Origin: Weeksellaceae bacterium
GTDB taxonomy: Bacteria; Bacteroidota; Bacteroidia; Flavobacteriales; Weeksellaceae
Assembly: GCA_949788275.1 (NCBI GenBank)
Contig: OX460916.1
Coordinates: 1,116,001 to 1,180,000, forward strand
DNA length: 64,000 nucleotides
Direction of reading: 5' to 3'
Positions 2,617-5,298 of the stretch are shown in pieces; the first letter of the stretch is position 1, and the number at the start of each line of letters is the position of its first letter. The translations under genes were made by a program, and so were the position numbers. Under the pieces are notes generated by a model that searched no databases, was not told the DNA's origin, and saw only the letters and a program-made list of their open reading frames with translations.

Positions 2617-2624
2617 TATATTTG
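2617..2624 (+). promoter_or_regulatory. Promoter -7 box for the speA leader transcript
   Basis: TATATTTG matches TAnnTTTG. A TTTTG lies upstream at 2597-2601, with a shorter spacing (15 nt) than usual. If used, transcription starts near 2631 and the speA mRNA has a leader of roughly 270 nt, long enough to hold the 2663-2800 reading frame and the hairpins described below. Confidence 0.45.
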
Positions 2625-2662
2625 TCGCGCATATTTTGCCTCAATTTTTATAAAAAAGTTAG

Positions 2663-2800
2663 ATGGGTGTTCACTTTTTATTCGAAACCACTTGGATAGG
2701 GAAAGCTCTAAGTGTTTTAGCTTTTAGACAAAGAAACGAATTACAGATATTTACTTTCCAAATACTACCTCGCAAAGTATCTTATGCGATACGTGTTTAG
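2663..2800 (+). CDS. Possible 45-residue leader peptide upstream of arginine decarboxylase
   Basis: ATG to TAG, 45 codons, starting about 32 nt after the predicted transcription start and ending 103 nt before speA. The peptide begins MGVHFLFETTWIGKALSV and continues LAFRQRNELQIFTFQI, then ends PRKVSYAIRV. It has four arginines, at residues 22, 24, 37 and 44. Its stop codon lies at the 5' edge of a possible hairpin pairing 2799-2808 with 2829-2837. A second hairpin with a short T-run follows at 2852-2876. From memory, the R-N-hydrophobic stretch resembles the ornithine-sensing SpeFL leader peptide of enterobacteria; this has not been tested. It may simply be a chance frame: codon evidence is limited and no strong ribosome-binding site is visible. 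Confidence 0.4.
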   Translation: MGVHFLFETTWIGKALSVLAFRQRNELQIFTFQILPRKVSYAIRV

Positions 2801-2851
2801 TACCTTTATTTTACCTTCAACATCAAACTAAAGTACTGGATAAAATTAGAC

Positions 2852-2876
2852 GATAAGCGCATGTGGCTTATCTTTT
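2852..2876 (+). terminator. Terminator-like hairpin in the speA leader
   Basis: GATAAGC (2852-2858) pairs perfectly with GCTTATC (2866-2872) around a 7-nt loop, followed by TTTT. It sits 27 nt before the speA ATG, so it could be an attenuator. The T-run is weak. A competing hairpin is possible just upstream (2799-2837). Confidence 0.4.
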
Positions 2877-2903
2877 GTATCACGTTAATTTATAAATCGT
2901 ATA

Positions 2904-4292
2904 ATGAAAACCAAATATATAGACCTTATTACTCAATCTTTTGATTTTCCTCAGGATGAATTCGACTTAGATGGAGAGTACCTTAAATTTAATGGCATCG
3001 ACCTGAAGTCTCTTGTAGAGGAACATGGAACACCTTTAAAATTTACGTACTTACCCAAAATATCAGAGAATATTCAGAAAGCCAAAAATTGGTTTGAACA
3101 AGCCCGAGAGGAGCTAGGGTATGAAGGGAGTTACAATTACTGCTATTGTACAAAGAGTTCACATTTTAAACATATCGTGAAAGAAGCGTTAAAGAATGAT
3201 ATTCACATTGAGACTTCGTCTGCCTTTGATGTGAACATTGTCGAAAACCTCATTGAAGAAGGATTAATGAATTCGGATCAATATGTTTTATGCAATGGTT
3301 TTAAACGCGAAGAATATGTCGAAAATATTGCCCGTTTGGTTAACAATGGTCATCGTAAAACGATTACCATTATTGATAATTATGAAGAGGTCGATCTTTT
3401 TTCGGAAGCCATCGAAGGGGATTTTGAAATCGGGATTCGAATTGCATCGGAAGAAGAACCAAAATTCGAGTTTTATACGTCGCGTTTAGGGATTGGGTAT
3501 AAAGACATTGTTCCTTTCTATCACAACATTGTAAAGCCTAATGAGCGCATTAAATTAAAGATGCTTCACTTCTTTATCAATACAGGAATTAAAGATACTT
3601 CGTACTATTGGAATGAATTAACCAAATGTTTACGGGTGTATGTAAATCTAAAGAAGGTTTGTCCTGAATTGGATAGCTTAAACATTGGTGGTGGTTTTCC
3701 GATTAAGAATTCGTTAAACTTCGAATACGACTATGCCTACATGGCGAGAGAAATCTTGGTACAGATTCAGGCCATTTGTGAAGAAGAGGGTATCCCTGTT
3801 CCGAATATTTTTACCGAGTTTGGAAGCTTTACCGTAGGTGAGTCGGGCGGAGTGATTTACAAAATCCTTTACCAAAAGAAACAGAATGACAAAGAATACT
3901 GGGATATGATTGATTCATCGTTTATGACGACTTTACCCGATTCTTGGTCGATTTCAAAGCGTTTCGTGATGCTACCAATTAATCGTTGGTATGATAAATA
4001 CGAGCGTGTCTTGTTGGGTGGACTAACCTGTGATTCGGACGATTATTACAATTCTGAACAGCATGTTAATGCCATTTACTTACCGAAGTATGATACGGCA
4101 AAGCCTTTGTACATTGGTTTCTTTAATACCGGCGCTTACCAGGATAATATTTCTGGATTTGGAGGAGTACACCACTGTCTAATTCCCCAACCAAAATATA
4201 TTCTGATCGATGAAGAATATAAAGCCACTGTTTATTCTGAAGAACAAAGCCATCAGAATGTGTTAACCACCTTAGGGTACAATTTAAAATAG
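2904..4292 (+). CDS. speA: Arginine decarboxylase, fold-III PLP enzyme
   Basis: 462 residues. Decarboxylates arginine to agmatine, the first step of the arginine-derived polyamine route. It is the shorter Bacteroidota form, not the 630-residue E. coli SpeA. The probable PLP lysine is Lys84 in YNYCYCTKSSHFKH. A glycine-rich phosphate-binding stretch (LNIGGGFPIKNS, near 260) and LGGLTCDSDDYYNSEQ (near 370), carrying the conserved CxSxD active-site element, follow. The downstream gene, 31 bases away on the same strand, is a deoxyhypusine-synthase homologue, supporting a polyamine role. Probably controlled through its long leader. A diaminopimelate- or ornithine-type specificity cannot be fully excluded from sequence. 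Confidence 0.88.
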   Translation: MKTKYIDLITQSFDFPQDEFDLDGEYLKFNGIDLKSLVEEHGTPLKFTYLPKISENIQKAKNWFEQAREELGYEGSYNYCYCTKSSHFKHIVKEALKNDIHIETSSAFDVNIVENLIEEGLMNSDQYVLCNGFKREEYVENIARLVNNGHRKTITIIDNYEEVDLFSEAIEGDFEIGIRIASEEEPKFEFYTSRLGIGYKDIVPFYHNIVKPNERIKLKMLHFFINTGIKDTSYYWNELTKCLRVYVNLKKVCPELDSLNIGGGFPIKNSLNFEYDYAYMAREILVQIQAICEEEGIPVPNIFTEFGSFTVGESGGVIYKILYQKKQNDKEYWDMIDSSFMTTLPDSWSISKRFVMLPINRWYDKYERVLLGGLTCDSDDYYNSEQHVNAIYLPKYDTAKPLYIGFFNTGAYQDNISGFGGVHHCLIPQPKYILIDEEYKATVYSEEQSHQNVLTTLGYNLK

Positions 4293-4323: not shown

Positions 4324-5298
4324 ATGAGCAAAGGACCAATTAGTCAATTTATTGAACATCAATACAGACATTTTAACGCAGCAGCTTTAGTTGATGCAGC
4401 CAAAGGATATGAAAAACACCTAGAGGAAGGTGGGAAAATGTTAATCTCTTTAGGGGGAGCTATGAGTACGGCTGAATTAGGAATTTCATTGGCTGAAATG
4501 ATTCGTCAAGATAAAGTTCAGATTATTTCTTGTACAGGCGCTAACTTAGAAGAAGATGTAATGAACTTGGTAGCGCATTCGCATTACAAACGCGTACCTA
4601 ATTATAGAGATTTAACGAAAGAGCAAGAAAAAGAATTACTAGATAGTCACTACAACCGTGTAACCGATACATGTATTCCTGAAGAGGAAGCATTTCGTCG
4701 TTTACAATCGCATTTAGAAGATGTTTGGCATGCAGCTGAAGCCAAAGGAGAACGTTATTTACCACATGAGTATTTATACCAAGTTGTAAATTCTGGAATC
4801 TTGGAACAATATTACGAAATAGATCCTAAGGATTCTTGGATTGTTGCGGCTGCAGAGAAAAACCTTCCTATTATCTGTCCAGGTTGGGAGGATTCAACGA
4901 CCGGAAATATTTTTGCGTCGAATGTCATTAAAGGTAAATTACAAGCGAGTACCGTTAAATCGGGAATTGAATACATGATCTACTTAACCGAATGGTACCG
5001 CGCTAATTCAGCTGGTCGTGGTGTAGGTTTCTTCCAAATTGCAGGCGGTATCTCTGGTGATTTCCCTATTTGTGTTGTTCCAATGATGTATCAAGATTTA
5101 GAATGGGAAGATGTTCCTTTCTGGGCGTATTTCTGTCAGATCTCTGATTCAACTACATCATACGGTTCTTACTCGGGTGCAGTTCCCAATGAGAAAATTA
5201 CATGGGGTAAATTAGATGTTGATACACCTTCGTATGTAATTGAATCGGATGCCACTATTGTAGCACCTTTGGTATTTGCGTACATTTTAGGTCAGTAA
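4324..5298 (+). CDS. speY: Deoxyhypusine synthase-like protein, probable homospermidine synthase (SpeY type)
   Basis: 324 residues. Deoxyhypusine synthase family: NAD-dependent transfer of an aminobutyl group. Bacteria have no eIF5A, and a cyanobacterial homologue (SpeY) is known to make homospermidine from putrescine. The family's catalytic lysine is retained as Lys296 in ITWGKLD, next to the conserved SYGSYSGAVPNE. The NAD-site region ISCTGANLEEDVMNLVAHSHY (residues 68-88) is intact. It follows speA by 31 bases and ends before a terminator. sym-Homospermidine is the characteristic polyamine of Flavobacteria, which fits. Family is sure; the exact product is inferred. Confidence 0.82.
   Translation: MSKGPISQFIEHQYRHFNAAALVDAAKGYEKHLEEGGKMLISLGGAMSTAELGISLAEMIRQDKVQIISCTGANLEEDVMNLVAHSHYKRVPNYRDLTKEQEKELLDSHYNRVTDTCIPEEEAFRRLQSHLEDVWHAAEAKGERYLPHEYLYQVVNSGILEQYYEIDPKDSWIVAAAEKNLPIICPGWEDSTTGNIFASNVIKGKLQASTVKSGIEYMIYLTEWYRANSAGRGVGFFQIAGGISGDFPICVVPMMYQDLEWEDVPFWAYFCQISDSTTSYGSYSGAVPNEKITWGKLDVDTPSYVIESDATIVAPLVFAYILGQ

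Follow-up and report, generated by a model that had tools for sequence, protein, structure and literature searches.

A conserved short open reading frame ahead of speA in Flavobacteriales as a candidate translational attenuator

The speA gene in the DNA analysed here (the window, 64,000 nucleotides from a Weeksellaceae bacterium) is preceded by a 45-codon open reading frame (ORF) whose coding frame and C-terminus are conserved by comparison with related genomes, and in several lineages the end of this leader ORF is complementary to the speA start region. The probable mode of control, in our view, is translational attenuation, with speA turned on by a ribosome that pauses at the leader stop codon. 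As long as the ORF end is free of ribosomes, its last codons (UUAUGCGAU) would base-pair with the start region of speA and keep the start codon hidden; once a ribosome halts on these codons or on the stop codon, the pairing strand would be covered and the speA start freed, such that the stall would correspond to the ON state. Most simply, the conserved C-terminus V-x-Y-A-I-R-V-stop would be the part that slows termination, probably in concert with a pathway metabolite, for example arginine, agmatine, ornithine or a polyamine. What we infer in this model is that the ribosome stalls, which way control runs and what the ligand is. The features of the window are as follows.

2617–2624, forward strand: predicted promoter −7 element TATATTTG of the Bacteroidota-type TAnnTTTG, read from the sequence.
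2663–2800, forward strand: leader ORF, an ATG frame of 45 codons plus stop, product MGVHFLFETTWIGKALSVLAFRQRNELQIFTFQILPRKVSYAIRV.
2777–2800, forward strand: conserved C-terminus V-x-Y-A-I-R-V-stop, a candidate arrest motif from its invariance in the genus and like endings in other genera.
2782–2790, forward strand: UUAUGCGAU, the ORF-end strand of a predicted 9-bp duplex with the speA start region at 2896–2904.
2799–2837, forward strand: hairpin beginning on the leader stop codon (2799–2808 with 2829–2837) in the predicted minimum-energy fold.
2852–2876, forward strand: terminator-like hairpin followed by four T (GATAAGC-GCATGTG-GCTTATC-TTTT), found by scan and specific to the window.
2896–2904, forward strand: AUCGUAUAA, the speA start region with the A of the ATG included, predicted to be hidden by pairing with 2782–2790.
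2904–4292, forward strand: speA, a fold-III decarboxylase of 462 aa (Pfam PF02784, NCBIfam and best PDB hits).
4324–5298, forward strand: deoxyhypusine-synthase-like gene, 31 nt past speA (PF01916, E 1.4e-38).

Transcription probably starts near position 2630, and given the −7 box at 2617–2624 the leader of ~270 nt predicted by the first-pass annotation is plausible; TATATTTG also precedes the leader ORF in most members of the genus. The same annotation had described an intact 45-codon ATG frame with four arginines and a stop at the edge of a hairpin, and these are indeed present in the window, with arginines at residues 22, 24, 37 and 44 and a stop codon that overlaps the 2799–2808/2829–2837 pairing. 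The speA product matches the NCBIfam arginine decarboxylase family under the curated cut-off and its best PDB hits are arginine decarboxylases; the enzyme appears most like this group, with arginine as substrate assigned from homology only. Together with the deoxyhypusine-synthase-like gene, speA likely forms one polyamine operon.

The window species groups with Empedobacter brevis in one genus (the E. brevis speA is 91% identical to that of the window), which was sampled in 14 genomes, Empedobacter or very close, the window species included. An ORF of exactly 45 codons, with zero indels, lies ahead of speA in all 14, and the frame thus survived the test of conservation in close relatives on which the first-pass annotation had staked its reading. 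The spacer from the ORF stop to speA varies from 65 to 106 nt across these genomes (speA ATG counted in). The residues M1, F7, K14, L35, V39, Y41, A42 and R44 are invariant, and the C-terminal consensus is V-x-Y-A-[IL]-R-[VL]-stop. Pooled over the genus, pN/pS is 0.49 in the ORF frame and rises to 0.86 and 0.94 when the frame is shifted, and in two sub-clades pN/pS of the ORF is 0.069/0.316 and 0.119/0.292. A profile of the peptide finds a single strong match per genome in the genus (E 1e-24 to 1e-27), every one before speA, and the second-best match reaches only E 0.04. Because its length is constant, selection acts in frame and the profile match before speA is unique, the leader ORF is judged to be a genuine coding sequence tied to speA, conservation also being the ground on which we take it to be translated. 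The leader frame lies far beyond chance.

Outside the genus, leader ORFs of a comparable kind but with diverged sequences occur. The related Vaginella and Moheibacter carry shorter frames ending FYALRV or SLRV. In the remaining sampled genera of the window's family (loci L026–L052) the speA leaders are short and the ORF is absent; these loci show a promoter-like box shortly upstream of the speA start, the leader having been lost or never present. The speA leaders of Flavobacteriaceae carry an ORF too, in three main types, of which the Flavobacterium type ends in ...EKLQIIYANIRV, the Flagellimonas/Aquimarina/Kordia type in ...TVFEFRI and the Winogradskyella/Lacinutrix type in ...SQHxYGFVPTTxxQIQV. 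Across the related genera and Flavobacteriaceae the diverged ORFs end mostly in [hydrophobic]-[R/Q]-[V/I]-stop. A single rule recovers a leader ORF at 96 of the 116 loci of these groups; shuffling the upstream sequence would yield 5.3 of 116, and control clades without a long speA leader yield 3 of 64 loci. The controls weigh more than the raw count, since the rule was drawn up after the endings were known. The off-frame control gives pN/pS of 0.40 in frame versus 1.31 and 1.20 for the Winogradskyella type and 0.29 versus 1.41 and 0.95 for the Flavobacterium type, with a weaker result for the Flagellimonas type (0.76 versus 1.04 and 1.14). Lengths in different genera span roughly 18 to 58 codons and the place before speA is constant; in the sampled other orders of the class such an ORF is mostly absent. 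The shared position and ending suggest that all leader types may have a common ancestor.

Two further observations concern variants of these ORFs. In the Winogradskyella/Lacinutrix type (L059, L077, L082 and similar loci) often only a TTG or GTG is found near the expected start, and these ORFs may begin at a non-ATG codon. A sub-type in L069, L073, L096, L127 and L132 ends W[AP]LLP[IL]IV-stop, and in L069, L096 and L127 the ORF-end TGTTGCC is complementary to GGCAACA immediately before the speA start.

In the window, the predicted pairing of 2782–2790 with 2896–2904 comprises 9 bp, and UUAUGCGAU falls within the codons for S-Y-A-I. A corresponding helix, 6 pairs or longer, is predicted in 12 of the 13 other genus members; a mismatch breaks part of it in L004, and in L015 a mismatch at one of its ends shifts it. 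The pairs change at the third position of codon 42 (T-A or G-C) and the first position of codon 43 (A-T or T-A); this covariation is suggestive, not conclusive, because in one sub-clade these two positions are unpaired in many members. Other lineages reach the same pairing via unrelated sequences, e.g. GTGTTCATT/AATGAACAC in Moheibacter (ORF end/speA start) and TTCGAGTTT/AAACTCGAA and TTAGAGTTT/AAACTCTAA in Flavobacterium, with up to 15 bp in the Flagellimonas type. Between the two strands, most genus members have a predicted hairpin after the stop, its sequence differing among them, and in the modelled fold hairpin 2799–2837 probably acts as a structural spacer, drawing the pairing strands together. 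The folding energy of the whole leader in the window is ordinary (z 0.07 versus shuffles).

To model a ribosome at the ORF end, we computed how much energy it takes to open the speA start when 34 nt of the ORF end, roughly what a ribosome at the stop would cover, are masked and when they are left free, with dinucleotide shuffles for comparison. Across 96 loci the mask improves start accessibility by a median of 2.57 kcal/mol versus 0.20 kcal/mol in shuffled sequence, and across 63 loci thinned to <70% identity by 2.72 versus 0.15 kcal/mol (Wilcoxon p 2e-8, the loci being mutually related so that p values over them are not those of independent observations). When the mask is slid along the leader, the pooled gain is highest at the ORF stop and close to zero farther upstream; for the Flavobacterium type, the single highest value comes from the most downstream positions, which adjoin the start itself. 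The gain is weak for the window alone (1.34 kcal/mol, p 0.05; 0.75 kcal/mol with longer context), becomes smaller with longer context in Moheibacter and Vaginella, and is absent at several Winogradskyella-type and some Flavobacterium loci. Sequestration of the downstream start by the ORF end is thus found for the group of loci and weakly for the window alone. In Flavobacterium johnsoniae, structure at the start region is known to tune initiation (PMC6847099).

The same helix could serve plain translational coupling that is ligand-free, in which passing ribosomes melt the helix, speA output tracks leader translation and the ORF end is kept mainly for RNA pairing. The helix does account for part of the ORF-end conservation, synonymous change within the sub-clades is lower in the leader ORF (pS about 0.3) than in speA (0.45–0.59), and in Salmonella translation of orf34 helps to open a structure masking the speF start (PMC6386406). 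Such coupling, however, requires no specific peptide, whereas the C-terminal amino acids are kept despite synonymous change where the pairing varies, as in the Flavobacterium QIIYANIRV (pN/pS 0.29), and we regard it as rather unlikely. Rho-dependent control, in which a ribosome at the leader stop shields Rho-loading RNA as at tnaC and speFL, has precedent in TnaC (PMC8429421) and in orf34 of speF (PMC6386406) and could act with the helix; it leaves the repeated pairing of ORF end and speA start unexplained, however, and as the explanation of the locus we hold it to be quite improbable.

Transcription attenuation, as proposed in the first-pass annotation, would have the position of the leader ribosome set whether hairpin 2852–2876 terminates, and would read arginine or polyamine supply. 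The hairpin is present between leader and speA, with 7 bp and a TTTT run, but has only three G-C pairs and its counterpart is absent from all 13 other genomes of the genus; terminator-like sites in the scan number 2 versus 1.2 expected, which is not significant. A conserved intrinsic terminator before speA was rejected as a candidate, this hairpin occurring in the window only. Supply sensing through arginine codons fares no better, as only R44 of the four arginines is invariant, and simple arginine-codon sensing is disfavoured because in many relatives from Flavobacteriaceae the peptide ends QIQV and lacks a terminal arginine. This reading is therefore very improbable indeed, and what stands of the leader-peptide control first proposed for speA is the conserved leader peptide and control linked to its stop codon, without the arginine-codon supply reading and the terminator. 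That the ORF product is a small trans-acting protein merely neighbouring speA would agree with the purifying selection on the ORF, yet conservation is mostly C-terminal, length is variable against a constant place before speA and no Pfam or NCBIfam family matches the product, which makes this extremely doubtful.

Many Flavobacteriaceae leaders contain a further element, in which RNA structure and coding sequence coincide. In the Flagellimonas and Winogradskyella types the N-terminal half of the leader peptide carries RKS[TY]xKA...RIL.LTS, and its coding RNA forms a covarying fold of ~60 nt with an outer stem GGAAGUC...GACUUCC, an inner hairpin and conserved CAAAAGC and ACCGAAU (examples at L107:2289-2351, L131:2277-2339, L062:2270-2332 and L085:2294-2356). 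In the alignment, where half the rows have the inner hairpin offset by one base, 88.9% of cells are paired, 7 pairs are changed on both sides and the covariation score is unreached by shuffles. The corresponding covariance model, R1, gives a single strong hit in most of the 13 genomes tested, located at speA where positions were checked, and a second strong copy in both Kordia genomes. In Kordia algicida this second copy lies within a short ORF (L188, about 314-376 of the reverse complement) and precedes a small-protein gene plus a RimK-like ATP-grasp gene; in Kordia sp. it lies at L068:1887-1949 on the minus strand, before a gene for a small secreted-looking protein, and the leader ORF there ends IYIRA-stop. 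R1 was not found in the window or in the genus loci searched, and an order-level scan was empty in the sampled genera, to which that result applies. The fold corresponds to no Rfam family and might act as an aptamer or cause pausing.

We tentatively propose that the speA leaders of Flavobacteriaceae, and of some members of the window's family, are new ribosome-arrest leader peptides that would sense a metabolite of the arginine-to-polyamine pathway at termination and free a speA start codon that lacks a Shine-Dalgarno site, with fold R1 in the same ORF perhaps a second sensor in many Flavobacteriaceae. Metabolite-sensing leader peptides of polyamine genes, SpeFL and MdtU, have been described from Gammaproteobacteria, and a conserved polyamine-synthesis leader in Flavobacteriales would extend the known cases to bacteria with mRNAs lacking Shine-Dalgarno sites. 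The speA leaders would offer a natural test of start-codon sequestration under such conditions, as well as a set of fast-evolving peptides with only a short C-terminal motif in common, and sensing of arginine or polyamine levels in Flavobacteriales becomes a testable question. Rfam 15 gave no gathering-score match in the window leader, with only chance-level hits up to E 10, and no match in 20 related speA leaders. A published description of a Bacteroidota speA leader was not found in the literature searched, which was thin on subscription journals.

Among the known classes, the speA leader has the conserved short leader ORF of a translational attenuator, its translation being deduced from conservation; it has neither the arginine run nor the conserved intrinsic terminator of a trp/his-type transcription attenuator. 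In ErmCL-type macrolide-inducible leaders, the helix that hides the downstream start is opened when a ribosome stalls on the leader ORF; the stall there is drug-dependent and inside the ORF, a Shine-Dalgarno site is sequestered and the gene class is another. The proposed speA attenuator thus shares with the ErmCL type the leader stall that opens a start-hiding helix and differs from it in these other respects. The TnaC leader of tnaCAB arrests at termination (PMC8429421) and, like the speA leader, has a penultimate arginine before the last residue and stop, a likeness of one residue position; unlike the speA leader, it acts in tryptophan sensing and Rho protection. The conserved penultimate arginine recalls by analogy both TnaC and the Arg-ending SpeFL. 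At SpeFL/orf34, where ribosome position at the stop alters mRNA folding (PMC6386406; PMC7815308), the leader peptide likewise precedes a polyamine-synthesis decarboxylase. The speA leader differs in having no conserved consecutive arginine codons and in its downstream gene, which is fold-III arginine-decarboxylase-like and not speF (ornithine decarboxylase); PF10940 (SpeFL) had no match over the cut-off in the 14 genus genomes and none at the speA leader, whereas exactly 1 of 14 control genomes passed the cut-off. The vague resemblance to SpeFL seen in the first-pass annotation accordingly falls away, as the FRQRNELQIFTF region is also unconserved in the genus. The nearest described design is the mdtU uORF of Escherichia coli mdtJI, which is conserved mostly at its C-terminus, the RNA of this part having a predicted pairing with the downstream ribosome-binding site (PMC7815308). 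The mdtU uORF differs in that it belongs to Gammaproteobacteria and precedes a spermidine exporter gene, mdtJI, rather than a biosynthetic enzyme, and in that an involvement of spermidine and Rho has been demonstrated, whereas the speA leader is known from sequence and belongs to unrelated hosts. Both leaders nonetheless stand before a polyamine-related gene, are conserved at the C-terminus and have an ORF end predicted to pair with the downstream start region.
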